A stretch of DNA of 23,446 bases from a virus, in the IMG/VR virus record IMGVR_UViG_3300043398_000328, positions 1 through 23,446 of that record. One strand, written 5' to 3'. Below, piece after piece: positions 2,059 to 23,446 of this stretch; within the stretch, counting starts at the first letter, position 1; the number at the start of each line of letters is the position of its first letter. The notes below the pieces were generated by a model. It ran no database searches. It had not been told where the DNA came from and was given only the letters and a program-made list of their open reading frames with translations. The position numbers and the translations under genes were made by a program.

Positions 2059-2118
2059 TGTGTCGCGCTTCGGCACCGACCGCTGTGGCTCGTGCCTCGC
2101 ACAGAGGGGGCTCGACGT

Positions 2119-3729
2119 ATGCCCTCTGAGGTCATCACCGAGCCCATCGCATTTCTCCCAAGCCTCGAGACGAGCAGCGAGGAAATTGGCGGCGGCTCGC
2201 CAGAAGCCTACAACATCATCGTCGACCGGCGCGGAGTCATCCGGAAGCGACCCGGCCTCGTCGCGTACACGGGTGTCGCTCCCGCTACTTCCATCGACGC
2301 GGCCGGGGTGCTCGGGCTGTACCTGACGGAGCAGCGCGTGGCTCACACGAGCGGAACCCCCACGGTGAGCGGCACGCACCCTGGAGTGCTGTATGCCGTA
2401 GGTGCCACCGTGAACGCCTCTGGCGGCGGGCACAATGCCGGGCGAAACGTGTACCGGGTAGCCAGTGGTGCGGCAACGCTGGTTGGGACTGGCGCCGCCA
2501 ACGAAGACCGCCTCGCAACGCCCGCCACCATCGCCAGTACTCGGTTTCCGCGACCCATCTTCGCCGAGACGGAAGCACTCCTCGTCATCGCAGGCGGCGC
2601 CGAAATCGGCAAGGTGGACATCCGTCCAGAGACGTTCAGCGCGCCCAACTTCACGACCAACGCCGATTACCACGAGATGAGCTTTCTCGGCGGCTGCCCG
2701 CCGCTGGCGAGCCACGTGCTCACCAACAGCTCCCGCATCCTGGCGAACGATACCCAGCTCGACCAGACCAAGCTCCGCTACTCCGACATCACCCAGGGCA
2801 TCGTCGACTTCACGCCGCATGAGAGCTGGGACCCGAGCCCGGGCGCCGCTGGCTTCTTCACGGCGGAGGCGCGCGCCGACAGCATCGTCGCGTGCGCGGA
2901 GAACACGAACGACATCTTCCTGTTTGGGCGCACGAGCCTGCAGCTCTTCTCGCCGGACCCGAGCACCACGTTTGCCCCCAGCGTCACGCGCGAGGTGGGG
3001 TGCCTCGCTGCTTACAGCCCGGTGAAGCTGGACGACAAGTACGCCTGGCTCGACCACCTGACGCGCATCATCGTCAGCGATGGCCGCGAGTGGGACGACG
3101 TGGGCGCGCCGGTCCAAGCGACGCTCGACGACCTGACCACGCCGAGCGACTGCTACGCCTACCGGTTTAGCGAGAGCTTCGCCGACTGCGTGGTGTTCCG
3201 GTTCGAAGCCGACCAGGAAACGCTCGTCCTGCAGCCCGGCATCGGCTGGAGCCGCTGGGCGCTGCACGACGCGGAGGCGGACGCCTTCACGATGTTCCCC
3301 GTGCTCTGCCACCACCTGCGGCAGGACGGCGGCCTGAACGTGGTGGGGCTGGAGGACGGCACCATCCGCGTGCTCAGCCTGGAGGCAGAGACCGACCTGG
3401 GCGAGCCCATCGTGGCTCACGTGTCGTCGGGCTTCGAGGACCGCAAGACGGACAACCTCAAGCAGACGGTGGCCGTGTACGTGACCATCAAGCGCACCCA
3501 GGCGGTGAGCGAAGGGGTCACCTGTTACCTCGAGTACCGCGACGACCTGAGCGCGGAGTGGACCACCATCGACATCGAGCTGGGCGTGGACGACGGCAAC
3601 CACACGCCCACGATTCCGATTCGCTCGCTCGGCGTCTACCGGCGCCGGCAGTGGCGCTTTCGCTTCCCCGATTCGGCCCCGCTCGCGCTCGTGCGCGCGC
3701 TGGAGGCGTTCAGAACCCTGGACGACTGA
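2119..3729 (+). CDS. P22 gp10-like packaged DNA stabilisation / tail protein
   Basis: I place the start at ATG 2119 because GAGGGGG lies at 2104-2110 with eight bases of spacing; an in-frame GTG at 2092 has no better site. The 536-residue protein opens with a segment containing EAYNIIVDRRGVIRKRPGL, close to the 'N-x-x-x-D-x-x-G-x-x-R-x-RPG' opening of gp10-like tail proteins. Later blocks include SFLGGCPP, NDIFLFGRTSLQLFSPDPS and YSPVKLDDKYAWLDH, typical of the beta-propeller-like region of the family. In P22, gp10 joins the gp4 ring and closes the channel so packaged DNA does not leak; the same role is inferred here. A 60-base gap separates it from the gp4-like gene, and it ends six bases before the next ATG. 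Confidence 0.72.
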   Translation: MPSEVITEPIAFLPSLETSSEEIGGGSPEAYNIIVDRRGVIRKRPGLVAYTGVAPATSIDAAGVLGLYLTEQRVAHTSGTPTVSGTHPGVLYAVGATVNASGGGHNAGRNVYRVASGAATLVGTGAANEDRLATPATIASTRFPRPIFAETEALLVIAGGAEIGKVDIRPETFSAPNFTTNADYHEMSFLGGCPPLASHVLTNSSRILANDTQLDQTKLRYSDITQGIVDFTPHESWDPSPGAAGFFTAEARADSIVACAENTNDIFLFGRTSLQLFSPDPSTTFAPSVTREVGCLAAYSPVKLDDKYAWLDHLTRIIVSDGREWDDVGAPVQATLDDLTTPSDCYAYRFSESFADCVVFRFEADQETLVLQPGIGWSRWALHDAEADAFTMFPVLCHHLRQDGGLNVVGLEDGTIRVLSLEAETDLGEPIVAHVSSGFEDRKTDNLKQTVAVYVTIKRTQAVSEGVTCYLEYRDDLSAEWTTIDIELGVDDGNHTPTIPIRSLGVYRRRQWRFRFPDSAPLALVRALEAFRTLDD

Positions 3730-5988: not shown

Positions 5989-7821
5989 ATGGCAATCGAC
6001 ACCAGCGGAATGCTCCTGAAGCTGAACCCACTGTCGTCCATCGACCTGGGCGGGCTGCAGAGCGCGCAGAACGCGATGCAGCAGCGCGAGCAGCTGCGCC
6101 TGCAGCGCGAGCAGTTCGAGGCAGCCAAGGCCAACAACGCCCGCGAGCTGGACCTGCGCAAGATGGAGGAGCAGGGCCGCAACGCGCGCGCCGGCATGGA
6201 GAAGGAGCAAGCGGCGCAAACGGCCAAGGCGGCGAAGCTGAAGCAGCGCCACGAGGCCTACGCTGAATTCACCAAGCTCAACGGCGAGGGCAACGTGGAA
6301 GCGGCGCGCGCCATGGTTCCGTTCATGACGTCGCTCGGCATGAAGGTGGACCTGGAGGACGAGCAGGCGGGCCTGCCCCGTTACACCATCAGCGCGACCC
6401 CCGAGGATGACCCGCGTCAGCTCGACCCGGTCAACCCGCTCGCGTCCGCAGAGGAGCAGCAGGCCGCCGCCGCGCGCACCCCGAGCAACGTGCTCGACAT
6501 GGGGGCCCGGCAGCAGCGCATTGGAGCGCAGCTCGACCCGGTGATGAATTCGCTGGTGAGCGCCTACCCCGCGGAGTTCCAAGGCAGCGCCCGCGATACC
6601 TCCGCCGCCGTCCGCGGGCTCAACCTGAGCGCAGAGAAGACGGTGGAGATGTTCGACAAGATGCGCGGCTCTCCCGACCAGCTCATCAAGGCGGGCATCG
6701 ACGCGGACGCGGCCAAGGCGGCAGCGGGCGTGAAGAGCGACAGCGCCGAGTGGAATACCGGCTTCGAGCAGGGCAACACCATCGCCACCAAGCTCAAGCT
6801 CGGCGACACGGTGGGGCGCCGCAGCGACCTGGGGATGGTCGTCGAGATTCTGGGCAACGGCAACAACCTGGACGACTACCTGGCAGGAGCCGCCATCTCG
6901 CGGCTCATGGGTGAGCGCGGGGCCACGACTGAAGGCGACATCGGGCGCGCGCTCGGCAACGCCGGCATGAGCTTCATCGACAAGGTCAAGGCGAACCTCC
7001 ACGGTCAGGCAGTGGGCGGCCTCACCCCCGACCAGAAGAAGACGTTGCTCGGCGTAGCCAAGAACCGCCTCGCGCTCGACGCGCAGGAAATCCACGCCTT
7101 CATGGACAACGTGGAGAGGGGCGACGCCACCCCCGGCGTGGTGTCGGGGCGCAAGGCGTACCGCGACATGCTCATCCCCCGCGACGTCCGCGAGGGCTAC
7201 GAGAAGCTCCGCAAGGAGAAGCAGGCGAAGAGCGCGCCCAAGCCGGCCGAGAGCGGGCGCTTCGACATGCAGGCCAACCCCGAGCCCGAGGCTCGCCCGT
7301 CGCCGCTGAAGGAAGACGACTTCGACGGCGAGCTGCGCCGGCAATCGGAGGAGCAGGGGCTCAACTTTGACGCCATCAAGGGCGTCATCGGGCCCGAGAG
7401 CGGCGGTAAGCCCGGAGCGGTCAACTCCACGAGCGGAGCCACGGGGCTGATTCAGTTCCTCCCCAGCGTGGCCAAGGCGATGGGCACCACGACCGAGGAG
7501 ATCGGCAAGATGAGCGCGACCGAGCAAATCCCGCTCGTGCTGCGCTACTTCAAGGAACGCGGGCTCACCAAGGAGCACACCCAGGACGACTACTACCTGG
7601 GCGTCTCGGCGCCGGCCGCCATCGGCAAGCCAGACGATACCGTCGTCTACAAGAAGGGCTCCGTCGAGTGGGAGCAGAACCCCGCTTGGCGACCCGCTGG
7701 CGGCGGCGACATCACCGTCGGCGACATCAAGGCCTACGGCGGAGCCAAGCGCAAGGGCGGCGATGACGAGGCCAAGCGCGCCCGGCTGGAAGAGCTGCGC
7801 GCAAAGAAGGCAGGCGGCTGA
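5989..7821 (+). CDS. Ejection protein with lytic transglycosylase (SLT) domain
   Basis: This is a 610-residue protein. Residues about 22-85 form a strongly charged coiled coil (QQREQLRLQREQFEAAK). The C-terminal region from about 455 to 560 is a soluble lytic transglycosylase-like domain. IGPESGGKP carries the likely catalytic Glu470, followed by NSTSGATGLIQFLPS, the usual 'S-x-x-G-x-x-G-x-x-Q-x-x-P' block of the family. A later YYLGVSAPAAIG segment resembles the domain's end. Such domains cut glycan strands of peptidoglycan so phage DNA can enter, as in T7 gp16. The middle part (about 150-400) is helical and unrecognised. Its stop overlaps the ATG of the next ejection protein (TGATG). Confidence is high for the domain and good for the role. 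Confidence 0.85.
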   Translation: MAIDTSGMLLKLNPLSSIDLGGLQSAQNAMQQREQLRLQREQFEAAKANNARELDLRKMEEQGRNARAGMEKEQAAQTAKAAKLKQRHEAYAEFTKLNGEGNVEAARAMVPFMTSLGMKVDLEDEQAGLPRYTISATPEDDPRQLDPVNPLASAEEQQAAAARTPSNVLDMGARQQRIGAQLDPVMNSLVSAYPAEFQGSARDTSAAVRGLNLSAEKTVEMFDKMRGSPDQLIKAGIDADAAKAAAGVKSDSAEWNTGFEQGNTIATKLKLGDTVGRRSDLGMVVEILGNGNNLDDYLAGAAISRLMGERGATTEGDIGRALGNAGMSFIDKVKANLHGQAVGGLTPDQKKTLLGVAKNRLALDAQEIHAFMDNVERGDATPGVVSGRKAYRDMLIPRDVREGYEKLRKEKQAKSAPKPAESGRFDMQANPEPEARPSPLKEDDFDGELRRQSEEQGLNFDAIKGVIGPESGGKPGAVNSTSGATGLIQFLPSVAKAMGTTTEEIGKMSATEQIPLVLRYFKERGLTKEHTQDDYYLGVSAPAAIGKPDDTVVYKKGSVEWEQNPAWRPAGGGDITVGDIKAYGGAKRKGGDDEAKRARLEELRAKKAGG

Positions 7822-18046: not shown

Positions 18047-18258
18047 GCAGAGCAGGCCGCGTCATCTTCCGATTGCTGGGCGTCGTCGAGCTGGTTGCCG
18101 ACGCCTACGACTTCGTGCGCGGCTTCTTCCGGAAGCCGTCGCGCACCGTGCAGGACCTTCTCGATGAGCAAGAAGAAGTCATCCCCCTCCGGCGAGTCAC
18201 CAAGGCCCCGCCCCCGCAGCGAAGCGGAGGAACGCCTAGCCGAGGCCCTGGCCGCTGA
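18043..18258 (+). CDS. Small hydrophobic protein of the lysis cassette
   Basis: This 71-residue protein starts at an ATGA overlap with the endolysin. Residues about 7-29 (VIFRLLGVVELVADAYDFVRGFF) form an amphipathic or membrane helix, followed by a charged stretch (VQDLLDEQEEVIP) and a Pro/Arg/Gly-rich tail. Its last 95 bases overlap the next gene in another frame, so the C-terminus may be constrained by that gene rather than by its own function. Position suggests a second lysis factor (spanin-like or antiholin-like). No family is recognised. Confidence 0.45.
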   Translation: MSRAGRVIFRLLGVVELVADAYDFVRGFFRKPSRTVQDLLDEQEEVIPLRRVTKAPPPQRSGGTPSRGPGR

Positions 18259-18526
18259 CGCCATCCCGGGCTGGGACCTGACGCGCGAGTACCGCTTCCA
18301 TCCCGAGCGGCGCTGGCGCTTCGACTTCGCGTTCCCCTCGGTCAAGCTGGCGGTGGAGGTGGACGGCCGCGGCCACTTCCGCGGCAAGATGAGCACGGAC
18401 TACGACAAGCAGAACGAAGCGACCCGGCTCGGGTGGCGCGTGCTGCGCTTTCAGTCGGGCCAAAAGAGAAAGGCGACCGAGTGGGCCGCCTTCATCCGCG
18501 AGGTGTTGGTTACAGCTCCGACTTGA
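18164..18526 (+). CDS. PD-(D/E)XK-like small nuclease (DUF559/Vsr-like)
   Basis: Start ATG 18164 has AGGA at 18152-18155 with eight bases of spacing. The 120-residue protein has WRFDFAFPSVKLAVEVDGRG with Asp54, Glu65 and Asp67 in a PD-(D/E)XK arrangement. It then has DYDKQNEATRLGWRVLRFQSGQ, the phrase 'K-x-N-x-A-x-x-x-GW-x-VLRF' of DUF559/very-short-patch-repair-like nucleases. In phages these proteins are often annotated as endonucleases and may resolve branched DNA. It begins inside the preceding small gene and ends 17 bases into the convergent gene on the other strand. A role in resolving recombination or packaging intermediates is inferred. Confidence 0.75.
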   Translation: MSKKKSSPSGESPRPRPRSEAEERLAEALAADAIPGWDLTREYRFHPERRWRFDFAFPSVKLAVEVDGRGHFRGKMSTDYDKQNEATRLGWRVLRFQSGQKRKATEWAAFIREVLVTAPT

Positions 18527-18725
18527 TGGGAGGCCCGAGGTCCCAGTCGGGCGGCAGCAGCCGCTCGCTCAGCACATCGAAGTCAGCGTCGTTGAAGAAG
18601 TAGTCGTCGCCGACGGTGCGCCACCCGCAGTCATCGCCGCCGCGCATGGAGCCCCACCGCGCCACCTCCACCGCCATGGCCGGGGTCGGCTTGTACCGCA
18701 CCCAGTAGTACCCCGGCTCCCTCAT
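18510..18725 (-). CDS. Small conserved phage protein (YYWVRY motif)
   Basis: This 71-residue leftward protein starts at ATG 18725, an ATGA overlap with the exonuclease-annealase gene upstream in its operon. It opens with MREPGYYWVRYKPTPAMAVE and ends with DYFFNDADFDVLSERLLPPDW. The short 'GYYWVR...W...GDDYFF' pattern occurs in small phage proteins of unknown function encoded in early regions. It has no membrane segment or metal motif. The 3' end overlaps the convergent nuclease gene by 17 bases, which leaves no room for a terminator between the two transcripts. Confidence 0.6.
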   Translation of the reverse strand: MREPGYYWVRYKPTPAMAVEVARWGSMRGGDDCGWRTVGDDYFFNDADFDVLSERLLPPDWDLGPPIKSEL

Positions 18726-20341
18726 GCCGCCTTGGCCTCCAGCTCCTCAGCAGTGGTGCCAAACTCTTCGGGGCAGTAGAGGCCCATGGTGGCAGCGGGC
18801 CACAGCAGCCGGGCCAGCTTGCTGCCGGCCGTCTTGGTGAGCATGTCGGCGGGGCGCTTGACCCAGTTGCCGCCCTTGCCATAGGCGGCGTCTTTCACCA
18901 GCCCGGCCTGACGAGCTTCCTCGATGGTGTAGGTGAACGGCACCGGCTCGGGGGTGCCCCGACGCTTGCCCACCCACGTGCAAGACGTGGCGCTCATCGC
19001 CTTGGGGTACAGGTATTCAAACGTCGGGTCTTTCTCGGCGAGCGCTCGAATCAGATCGGCGCTGGCGCTGGGCTTGCCTTCCACGATGTGGAAGCCGGCG
19101 AGCGCAGTGGTCACGCCAATGCCCAGCTCCTTGGCGCGCATCATGACGGTAAAGATTTGGGCCTCCGTCTTAAACTGACTGTAGAGACCGCCGCGGTGGA
19201 GCCACTCGCTCATCGTGTACGCCGCCGTCAGGTCGACGGGTTGCAGGTCGGCGCTGACGATGCCGTACTTGCTTTGCGTGTAGTGGGGCACCTCGGAGAG
19301 CGCCGTGGTGGGGCGCGCCACCCGGGGAGCGGGCGCTGACTTGGGAGCGGAGCGCGGTTCCACCAGCTCAGGCTCCTCTGCTTCGGGCTCCTCACTCTCG
19401 GCGGGTTGAGTTGCCTTCTGCTGCAGCACCTCCTGGTACGCGCGGCGGGCGTCGTCGATGCCGGGGTGCGGCTTCACGTCGTTCTCTGCCGGCGGCATCG
19501 GGGTATCGTTGCGCGTGAACACGGCGTCGGTAATGTCCATGGCGTTCCTTTTTGGTTGCTCGGGTTGTGCGTCCCGTCGGGACAGCAGGGCGTCCGCGTC
19601 GAGCGGCACGTTGGTGTTCATGGTGACCAGCTCCAGGCTGAGCTTGAGCTTGTCCCAGTTGGCGGCGAGCGAGCGCAGCGTGGCGGGCGGCAGCTCCCCG
19701 GGGTTCTCCGCCATGCCCCGGGCCAGGCCCTCTAGCGTCTTATACTTGTTGCAGAGCTGAGGCGCCCGCTCTTTGCCGATGCCCGGCACGCCGGGGATGT
19801 TGTCGCTCTTGTCGCCGCACAGCGCCTGATAGAGCGGCATCAGGTGGGGGCGTACGCCCCACTTCTCTTCCACCCCGTCGGCGTCGCGCTTGACCCAGCC
19901 CTCGTCACCGTGGGGCGGGATGTACTGGACGACGTTGGGCGTGATGCACTGCGCGGCATCCTTATCGCTGGTCACGATGCGCACGTCATCACACCACACG
20001 CCATAGATGCTGGCGAGCGTGGCGATCACGTCGTCGGCTTCGTAGCCCTCGCTCCACGCTTGGGGGTAGCCGAGCCGCTGAATCTCGGCAAAGAGCCGCT
20101 TCTTCTGCGCGCGCTCCTCTGGCGTGGTGGCGGGGCGGTTCGCCTTGTACGCTTCGAAAACCGCGGCGCGTCTATAGGGCGGCGCGTCGCGGCACAGGAT
20201 GACGTGCGCCACGCCGACGCGCAGCTTGTCCAGGTCGCGCAGCGTCAGCTCTACCACCTGCATGGGGTCGGAGGCAGTGACCCAACGCTTCTTCCATACG
20301 TAGCTCAGGTCGACCAGTGCGATGGATGCGGGGCGGTTCAT
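18722..20341 (-). CDS. Fusion of FEN-type 5'-3' exonuclease and RecT-like annealing protein
   Basis: One 539-residue frame carries two complete-looking modules. Residues 1 to about 250 are a PolA-N/T5-FEN-like 5'-3' exonuclease: Asp11 in VDLSY, YKANR (65-69), YEADDVIATLA with Glu101, Asp103 and Asp104, TSDKDAAQ with Asp126 and Asp128, and CGDKSDNIPGVPGIGKE with Asp177 and Asp180, followed by the H3TH region. Residues about 268-350 are an acidic, Pro/Glu-rich linker. Residues about 370-535 resemble phage RecT-type annealing proteins (MRAKELGIGVTTALAGFHIV, EGKPSASADLI, FTYTIEEARQAGL, NWVKRPADMLTKTAGSKLA). Exonuclease and annealase normally work as separate partners in end-resection recombination, like Red alpha and beta. 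A well-placed ribosome site at Met268 suggests that the second module is also made alone. The gene overlaps both neighbours by ATGA. Confidence 0.85.
   Translation of the reverse strand: MNRPASIALVDLSYVWKKRWVTASDPMQVVELTLRDLDKLRVGVAHVILCRDAPPYRRAAVFEAYKANRPATTPEERAQKKRLFAEIQRLGYPQAWSEGYEADDVIATLASIYGVWCDDVRIVTSDKDAAQCITPNVVQYIPPHGDEGWVKRDADGVEEKWGVRPHLMPLYQALCGDKSDNIPGVPGIGKERAPQLCNKYKTLEGLARGMAENPGELPPATLRSLAANWDKLKLSLELVTMNTNVPLDADALLSRRDAQPEQPKRNAMDITDAVFTRNDTPMPPAENDVKPHPGIDDARRAYQEVLQQKATQPAESEEPEAEEPELVEPRSAPKSAPAPRVARPTTALSEVPHYTQSKYGIVSADLQPVDLTAAYTMSEWLHRGGLYSQFKTEAQIFTVMMRAKELGIGVTTALAGFHIVEGKPSASADLIRALAEKDPTFEYLYPKAMSATSCTWVGKRRGTPEPVPFTYTIEEARQAGLVKDAAYGKGGNWVKRPADMLTKTAGSKLARLLWPAATMGLYCPEEFGTTAEELEAKAA
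19538..19553 (-). promoter_or_regulatory. Internal ribosome-binding site at the exonuclease/annealase boundary
   Basis: Read leftward, AAAAAGGA is followed by ACGCC and ATG (19540-19538). AAGGA has five bases of spacing, a good Shine-Dalgarno. The ATG is codon 268 of the fusion gene and would give a 272-residue protein holding only the RecT-like module. Whether it is used is inference. Confidence 0.6.
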
Positions 20342-21807: not shown

Positions 21808-23446
21808 TTACTTGCCGCGTTTGCGGCGAGCAGAGTCAATGCTGGTGACGTTGGAGTCGGTGGGTAGCGCCTGCAGTCGCTTCAAGAGCGAAGCGGCCAG
21901 GTCCCATCGCTCGCTGGCGTTGGCGAGGTCATACAAGGCCTTCAGCTCAGACTTGTCTGCCGAATCAAGTATCCCCCACCCCCCACCCTGGGGGTGGGGG
22001 ATAGAGTTTTCCTGGGCAGTCTGATGCCGTTTTTCTCGGGGTTTTTGAGCCTCAGGAATCCCCGGGTGTCCCGTGAGTGGATTTCTAATCCGCGGGTCGG
22101 GGGTTCGATTCCCTCCGGGCGTGCCCGTAATCATTGAGGAATTCGTCTCGTGCTCGTTTTTATCCCCCACCTTATCCCCCACCCTGGGTGCTTCCTTATT
22201 GAAGCCGAGCGCTACATCCAGGGGCAGGAAGTCGCCCTGCTTGGCGAGCACGGAGCGGGCGATTTCCTTCTTCCGCCCATAGTGCTTCTGCATGACCTGG
22301 CTGGTCGTGTGCTGGGTCCGGAGCATGATCTTCGACTCGCTCCAATCCTTGGCGAGCCAGAAGGCAACGGCGGTCTGCCTCAGGTCCTGGAAGCGGAAGG
22401 GCTCCATGCCGTCGCCGCTCGCGTGCAGGTCGGGGCGCACCTTGTCGTTCACGCCGCTGGCGATCAGGTCGGCGCGGACGCCCTCGGCTAGCTCCAGCAT
22501 CTCGTTGGCGTCGAGCTGGGGGAAGATGAAGTCGGTGGCCTTGGCGTCGCCGCGGAACGCATGGAGCGCGGCGGCGACTCCGGGGGCCAGCTCCCACTGG
22601 CGAGCGTTCTTGTTGTTCTTGCCCTTGCCGATCGTGATGATGCCGTTATCGAAGTCGATGTTGGAGTACTTCAGTCGCAGCAGGTGAGCGGCGCGCAGCC
22701 CCTCGCGCACGTCCATCCCGTAGAGCAGCCGGCGCCACAGGGGCAGCTCGACGTTGGCGAGCAGCTTGGCGTCATCGTGTGGGTACAAGATGGCGTAGCT
22801 CGGCGGCGTGCTGATGGGCGGCAGCCAGCCGATGAGGGGCAGCGGATACTCCTTGGAGGTGATGATGCCGCAGGGCGAGACGGCGCGCTGACACACGGTC
22901 TGGATGACCTGGTAGTATTGGCGCAGCGCCGTGGAGGTCTTCACCCTTGGGCTGACGGCGCTAGGCGACACCGCCTCGCGGCACTTGGCTTCCGTCAATC
23001 GCGTCATCGGGATATGACCGATGACGCGATTGATGTACGACAGCCGCGAGAGGTTGCAGCGCGTGGTCTCTGGCTCTTGCCAGAGCTTGCTCTTGTACGC
23101 GGCGTAACGGGGGTCGAGCGCTAGCTCGTTCTTCGCCCAGCGCAGAGAAAACTCCTGGAACGTGGGCACGCCCGGGGCGACCTTGGCCGTAGCCTTGTGC
23201 TCGCGCACGTAGCGGAGCGCCAGGCGAGCGGCTAGGCCCGCCTCTTCCGGCGTGGCGGACTTGGCCACCTCACGCAGCAGGTCGTGAACCTTGGCGTGAT
23301 CGCCCAGCGGCAGCAGGTCGTTACGAAGCGTCTCCAGGTCGCGCTTGCGCTTGGCAAACTGCGCAGCGGTGAGCGTGGCGGGGGCCATGCACTCGAGGCG
23401 CACGTCGCCGCCGACACGCAGCCTGATCAGGTAACCGCTCTTGGCC
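21808..23446 (-). CDS. int: Tyrosine integrase containing attP, 5' end cut by window edge
   Basis: A GTG at 23403 could start a 531-residue protein, but the frame stays open to the window edge (AKSGYLIRLRVGGD precedes it), so the gene probably begins beyond base 23446. Numbered from GTG 23403, residues 1-235 hold arm- and core-binding regions. The catalytic domain has GLRAAHLLRLKYSNID (Arg codon 22693-22695), FQDLRQTAVAFWL with Q-x-x-R in place of the usual H-x-x-R (22375-22389), and QKHYGR with the nucleophilic Tyr at codon 22279-22281 (residue 375). Residues about 427-443 are the antisense translation of a tRNA-Arg 3' end (GGNRTPDPRIRNP), and about 88 residues follow. The enzyme should integrate the phage at a tRNA-Arg(UCU) gene. 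The tail after the tRNA segment would be lost on integration, as known for Mx8. Confidence 0.88.
   Translation of the reverse strand, partial: AKSGYLIRLRVGGDVRLECMAPATLTAAQFAKRKRDLETLRNDLLPLGDHAKVHDLLREVAKSATPEEAGLAARLALRYVREHKATAKVAPGVPTFQEFSLRWAKNELALDPRYAAYKSKLWQEPETTRCNLSRLSYINRVIGHIPMTRLTEAKCREAVSPSAVSPRVKTSTALRQYYQVIQTVCQRAVSPCGIITSKEYPLPLIGWLPPISTPPSYAILYPHDDAKLLANVELPLWRRLLYGMDVREGLRAAHLLRLKYSNIDFDNGIITIGKGKNNKNARQWELAPGVAAALHAFRGDAKATDFIFPQLDANEMLELAEGVRADLIASGVNDKVRPDLHASGDGMEPFRFQDLRQTAVAFWLAKDWSESKIMLRTQHTTSQVMQKHYGRKKEIARSVLAKQGDFLPLDVALGFNKEAPRVGDKVGDKNEHETNSSMITGTPGGNRTPDPRIRNPLTGHPGIPEAQKPREKRHQTAQENSIPHPQGGGWGILDSADKSELKALYDLANASERWDLAASLLKRLQALPTDSNVTSIDSARRKRGK
21970..22003. 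repeat. Left pair of inverted 11-bp repeats (integrase arm-site candidates)
   Basis: TATCCCCCACC lies at 21970-21980 and its inverse GGTGGGGGATA at 21993-22003. Together they form a perfect 13-bp inverted repeat (21971-21983 and 21990-22002) around a 6-base loop. They sit about 75 bases left of the tRNA-like core. Confidence 0.65.
22077..22125 (+). other. tRNA-Arg(UCU) 3' fragment: attP core candidate
   Basis: The sequence folds as the 3' part of a tRNA: anticodon stem GTGGA/TCCGC (22077-22081 and 22089-22093) with loop TTTCTAA and anticodon TCT (22084-22086), a five-base variable loop, T stem GGGGG/CCCTC with loop TTCGATT, acceptor strand CGGGCGT (22116-22122), discriminator G and CC. No D arm or 5' acceptor strand (ACGCCCG expected) precedes it. 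It is therefore not a working tRNA gene but the copy a phage carries to rebuild the host gene upon integration. Confidence 0.85.
22161..22183 (+). repeat. Right pair of direct 11-bp repeats (integrase arm-site candidates)
   Basis: Two direct copies of TATCCCCCACC at 22161-22171 and 22173-22183 (12-base period) lie about 36 bases right of the tRNA-like core. The second is followed by CTGGG, as also seen left of the core. They encode the odd GDKVGDK segment of the integrase, which suggests DNA-level rather than protein-level constraint. Confidence 0.65.

Follow-up and report, generated by a model that had tools for sequence, protein, structure and literature searches.

A phage integrase gene spanning its own putative attP at a tRNA-Arg(UCU) core, and apparent integration-dependent tail exchange in Planctomycetota elements

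The window analysed here is the whole of the linear IMG/VR record IMGVR_UViG_3300043398_000328 (23,446 nt). It is best read as holding, in full, the integration module of a temperate phage in which attP lies inside the integrase gene (int), the integrase tail would be exchanged upon integration, and the prophage would perhaps be stabilised as a result (probability about 0.8). This reading is based on the sequence identity of the core, its in-frame position, the arm-like repeats, the coding tail and the exchange computed on real sequence. Integration-dependent exchange of the integrase tail looks widespread in elements of Planctomycetota, whose tails are conserved and complete only in the excised state. 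As a frequent trait of this phylum it is apparently undescribed so far: the literature that was searched does not report it in Planctomycetota, which is weak evidence of novelty. Mx8 has been regarded as a nearly isolated example of an integrase that is rewritten by the integration it carries out, and the window phage adds an independently built one, with all candidate arm sites inside the gene. The presence of tail exchange across many elements makes it testable whether the C terminus lets an integrase read the state of integration, and it is also a warning that gene callers applied to prophages miss the true end of the integrase.

The integrase gene and its setting

The structural genes of the window are on the + strand, and the replication and integration genes on the − strand. 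The latter include a tyrosine integrase frame whose start lies beyond the right contig end and whose stop is at 21808-21810. Its parts are:

21811..23445, − strand: tyrosine integrase frame, 545 codons to the contig end (PF00589, E 8.7e-10; phrog_1 integrase, E 1.4e-15)
22273..22767, − strand: Phage_integrase catalytic domain, frame residues 227-391
21811..21996, − strand: conserved C-terminal tail past the core, predicted to be lost on integration (homology with the L078 tail; GC by codon position)

With 39.1 bits against Pfam PF00589 (cut-off 27.1), the product belongs to the tyrosine recombinases of the phage integrase type. Its catalytic residues R251, R356, H379 and Y389 are also found, by alignment, in the integrase of a second viral contig, L078 (IMGVR_UViG_3300006169_000014, 36 kb), and its HxxR box reads QDLR, the first His being replaced by Gln. 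The attP core lies about 50 residues past the Phage_integrase domain within the frame. Past this core, the frame is genuinely coding, because L078 has a homologous tail past its own core. GC by codon position in the window tail (0.59/0.49/0.78) is coding-like, and the repeat-bearing attP part departs from this pattern. The initial annotation had proposed to examine the contig for circularity; the record is linear, and a search of the window contig found no terminal repeat.

The attP core and the candidate arm-type sites

The core is represented by a single feature:

22079..22125, + strand: attP core, tRNA-Arg(UCU) 3' half from the anticodon arm to the acceptor 3' strand (46/47 against the L002 tRNA-Arg(TCT))

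It is antisense to the integrase, within the open frame 21808-23445 (−), and consists of the anticodon arm GTGGA-TTTCTAA-TCCGC (anticodon TCT), the T arm GGGGG-TTCGATT-CCCTC and the acceptor 3' strand CGGGCG, with no tRNA 5' half. These bases read as the initial annotation had described them, and its placement of an attP core antisense within the integrase frame agrees with the 46/47 tRNA identity and with a frame that stays open across the core. The reference for this comparison is the tRNA-Arg(TCT) of Planctomycetota bacterium KatS3mg102 (L002), from which the core differs only at 22109, in the T loop (T for A). Since 22078 is mismatched too, the block has 47 bases and not the 49 (22077-22125) first proposed, although the tRNA-Arg(UCU) 3' half is real. 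The computed chance of one mismatch or fewer in 47 bases is ~7e-27 per site.

ARAGORN and Rfam at its gathering threshold call no tRNA in the window, which is to be expected where only one half of the gene is present. With permissive settings, the best cmscan match in 21900-22300 is a tRNA at 22070-22119 (24.3 bits, E 0.0076) that has no D arm. Both hairpins form when the core is folded as RNA, with an energy that is ordinary in comparison with shuffles (z −0.77), so that the evidence for the tRNA block is its sequence identity and not its fold energy. As a tRNA 3' end devoid of the 5' half, the core has the make-up of an attP that targets a tRNA gene, and recombination would presumably take place there.

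Four candidate arm-type sites are found around the core:

21970..21981, + strand: candidate arm-type site TATCCCCCACCC
21992..22003, − strand: candidate arm-type site, inverted copy, GGGTGGGGGATA on the + strand
22161..22172, + strand: candidate arm-type site TATCCCCCACCT, member of a tandem pair
22173..22184, + strand: candidate arm-type site TATCCCCCACCC, in tandem with 22161..22172 at 12-bp spacing

The motif TATCCCCCACC has exactly four copies in the 23-kb contig (0.011 expected), and all of them flank the core inside the integrase gene, within 112 bp of the core anticodon loop. Their offsets from TTTCTAATCCG are −112 (+), −89 (−), and +79 and +91 (+), the last two at 12-bp spacing. These copies look like the arm-type sites of an integrase, by which they may be bound. 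The corresponding repeat of L078, AAGCCACCCC, is at −111 (+) and −92 (−), with weaker imperfect copies at +105 and +117 (+), also at 12-bp spacing. The two phages have this arrangement in common but not the repeat sequence, which would be expected of sites that co-evolve with their integrase.

Predicted effect of integration

The position of the core within int means that integration would truncate the gene and fuse it anew. The proposed mechanism starts from an attP of ~215 bp (arm sites, core, arm sites) that would be written in the int frame, between the catalytic domain and the C-terminal tail. The integrase would recombine the tRNA-Arg(UCU) 3' half of this attP with the matching sequence of a host tRNA gene, and the equivalent 3' half brought in by the phage would restore the host tRNA. 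Integration would cut off the last ~90 int codons and place them at the opposite end of the prophage, while the int frame would continue into the host tRNA, which it would read in antisense. The integrase would thus have its tail when made from free phage DNA and lack it when made from the prophage, with excision restoring the tail. Loss of the tail, which presumably alters the enzyme, may damp or redirect it and so stabilise the prophage, as reported for Mx8; by analogy with that phage, the tail would influence integrase activity.

The exchange was computed in silico on real tRNA genes. When the phage sequence from the core rightwards was joined to the L002 tRNA gene, the 545-aa free form became one of 505 aa that had lost the tail, and the joined frame, followed by script, crosses the entire tRNA in antisense before it enters host DNA. 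Joins with three other Planctomycetota tRNAs gave integrated forms of 487-502 aa; with each of the four tRNA genes the tail was removed, and 31-49 host-encoded residues were added. The window itself corresponds to the unintegrated form, as had been proposed from the start, since its frame runs on into a tail that is conserved in a second phage.

Related integrases in viral contigs

A scan of IMG/VR for related tRNA-Arg(UCU) 3' halves returned 76 loci, nearly all of which are complete tRNA genes. In L078 the fragment is inside a 569-codon integrase frame, and the IMG/VR integrase searches found this contig as the sole close relative of the window integrase; a plasmid search for relatives found none. 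The two integrases share 30% identity over their full length (E 4e-56), and their tails past the core share 39% over 67 aa (E 1e-10), which is above the integrase average, both of them ending in ...RRKRG. The tRNA core is read in different frames in the two proteins, so that what is conserved is its position between catalytic domain and tail, and not a tRNA-encoded peptide. L078 is like the window in its homologous integrase, the in-frame tRNA-Arg(UCU) fragment, the arm-site layout and the homologous tail, but it differs in the arm sequence, in the tRNA reading frame and in its remaining phage genes, which are mostly unrelated.

The integrase of Virus Rctr16k (KX853514) has a homologous catalytic part, 27% identical to that of the window and 38% to that of L078. 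In contrast to the window, its gene has no tail, and a tRNA 3'-half-like stretch is found ~0.6 kb downstream, outside the gene and flanked by repeats. Therefore, the core-crossing trait is not fixed in this integrase family. That stretch (~7562-7620), which Rfam does not call a tRNA, has TGTCCACG repeats on both sides in opposite orientations, and the region around it (~7450-7695 of this sequence, L093) is an unannotated candidate attP. Four more attP-like tRNA-Arg(UCU) fragments, in the viral contigs L021, L037, L077 and L086 (the last two near-identical), are located 137-210 bp outside the integrase, which indicates that crossing is not universal.

Mx8 and other published cases

Mx8, which according to the initial annotation targets tRNA-Asp genes, is like the window phage in that attP is inside a tyrosine integrase gene and integration replaces the C terminus, a replacement that for the window is predicted in silico. 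In its sequence (L090), a tRNA-like T arm at 6440-6482 is antisense in the C-terminal part of int, and a tandem 11-bp repeat, TGTGACAGCGG, precedes the core at 6369-6390, also inside int. The two cores would nevertheless be unlike each other, the tails are unrelated by BLAST, and the catalytic domains show only a remote relation (hhalign E 3e-7). Mx8 Int gives a BLASTP E of 0.023 against the window integrase and stands apart, on a long branch, in the integrase tree. Membership of the Mx8 lineage by descent was rejected on these grounds, and what places the window phage in the Mx8 kind is its architecture rather than close descent. Later papers on Mx8 describe a C terminus of 112 residues that gives way to one of 13 upon integration, leaving the enzyme less active (PMC4701971; also PMC6070905), while the predicted prophage form of the window integrase gains the longer host-encoded extension given above.

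The initial annotation regarded an attP inside the integrase as rare, with Mx8 as the known case. This view does not hold. The Islander paper names both the Mx8 and the SSV integrases as extending across attP (PMC4383910), the archaeal SSV-type (suicidal) integrases have the att site within the integrase gene (PMC8371274), the Streptococcus ICEs in rumA are a further published case, and 22 of the 34 Planctomycetota integrases described below cross their target. In the SSV type, integration splits and inactivates the enzyme, whereas in the window only the segment past the catalytic domain would be exchanged. The suicidal type was rejected for the window integrase, given that its core comes after residue 391, past the catalytic tyrosine.

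Integrases of Planctomycetota

PF00589 matches were surveyed in three Planctomycetota classes, the phage-type ones being picked by hand and a convergent tRNA or tmRNA being sought behind them; the crossing rate that results applies to Planctomycetota only. The int frame runs into a convergent tRNA or tmRNA in 22 of 34 cases, with 12 of 14 integrase frames entering a tRNA in the class of KatS3mg102 and 10 of 20 in the two other classes. The distribution in these two classes is two-humped, non-crossing frames mostly stopping 72-99 bases past the domain and crossing ones at 207-465. On the catalytic-domain tree, crossing and non-crossing integrases are intermixed and at least six changes are forced on well-supported branches, so that a single origin of the trait is not supported. 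In one Planctomycetota contig (L149 2207-2568) the integrase frame enters a tmRNA gene by 127 bases, and the overlap is thus not a matter of tRNA genes alone.

For 11 crossing elements the opposite end could be located, where 25-70 bases of the tRNA 3' part, beginning at or near the anticodon arm, are repeated. Upon rebuilding of the excised junctions, the int frame gains 62-125 codons in ten of the elements and 12 codons in the other, and it is the longest of the three frames at 8 of the 11 junctions. The motif L..[VI]..W..LP..[VI]+..[IV] is common to five excised tails, two further ones are 49% identical over 86 aa, and searches of the tails against Pfam found no family above its cut-off. 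Two IMG/VR contigs retrieved by the tail motif carry similar tails and are not independent evidence. The motif AWPxLPE is present in IMG/VR contigs L276 (13624-13662) and L274 (8002-8040), in short frames of 163 and 70 codons, possibly at the attR ends of proviruses from whose integrase the tail has been separated.

These elements are like the window in that the int frame runs across the tRNA core and the tail is exchanged on integration, but they use other tRNAs and have other tails, and the tRNA 5' half is where the integrated frame usually stops in the ones examined. Tail exchange might serve generally as a means of regulation in the phages and integrative elements of Planctomycetota, in which at least three unrelated but conserved tail families would sense the integration state and set the direction of recombination; we put this at slightly below even odds. 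One 88-kb region (L163, G047:C223:38849-127180) has as its boundaries a tRNA-SeC gene and 70 bases that repeat the 3' part of this gene, and its integrase crosses the tRNA.

Alternative explanations and the host

It could be argued that attP is real but its overlap with int passive, the essential integrase ending near the catalytic tyrosine and the ORF merely staying open beyond it. High G+C keeps frames open, some non-int frames past the core are as long in the G+C-rich class (64-575 codons), and many integrases with convergent tRNAs stop short of the tRNA at the 72-99 bases mentioned above. However, such an overlap does not account for tails that are conserved between the window and L078, for the W-x-x-L-P shared by the excised tails of five other elements or for the 86-aa similarity between two more. 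The int frames past the core are also longer than the other frames (Mann-Whitney p 0.0015), in addition to being the longest at most junctions. A passive overlap was rejected on the conservation of the tails, and we consider it improbable. That the block is instead a decayed or phage-borne tRNA gene, or the end of a provirus (attR), is an idea to which the isolated 3' half, the linear contig and the fact that IMG/VR records can be proviral fragments all lend themselves. An attL or attR would have host DNA on one side, whereas here the integrase frame continues without a break to either side of the core, the tail has a homologue in another phage, and the tail side still carries phage genes, among them the exonuclease/RecT gene. 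This makes a decayed gene or a provirus end extremely improbable.

The host of the window phage is likely a Planctomycetota bacterium, an assignment whose basis is the tRNA match alone. Exact scans of IMG/VR and genome contigs gave no match to the core, which with its T at 22109 in the T loop is in no genome searched. A slightly relaxed scan of ~85,000 species, which left two positions free only, matched four genomes, all of them Planctomycetota and each within a complete tRNA-Arg(TCT) gene. The expectation that the tRNA would identify the host was therefore borne out for the host group, and a nearly identical tRNA gene exists in L002, but the exact block was not recovered. Searches of 392 Planctomycetota genomes found neither relatives or prophages of the window integrase, as had been anticipated beside the tRNA gene, nor a lysogen of the phage, an attB occupied by it or relatives of its structural protein 2092-3729. 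These absences, together with the narrow pattern of the scan and the unmatched T at 22109, are compatible with a host from elsewhere, if the tRNA likeness were common to other phyla and had been missed by an exact-pattern scan. Four of four matches among ~85,000 species in Planctomycetota, one of them at 46/47, make such a host somewhat unlikely.

Other genes of the window

The frame at 18722-20341 (−) has a 5'-3' exonuclease (both Pfam halves) in its N-terminal part and a RecT-like annealing domain in its C-terminal part, in what appears by sequence to be a fusion of two recombination partners within one open frame; none of the phage records searched covers at least 80% of it. At the end of the structural genes, 18095-18526 (+) encodes a small DUF559 (PF04480) protein and adjoins an endolysin-like gene.
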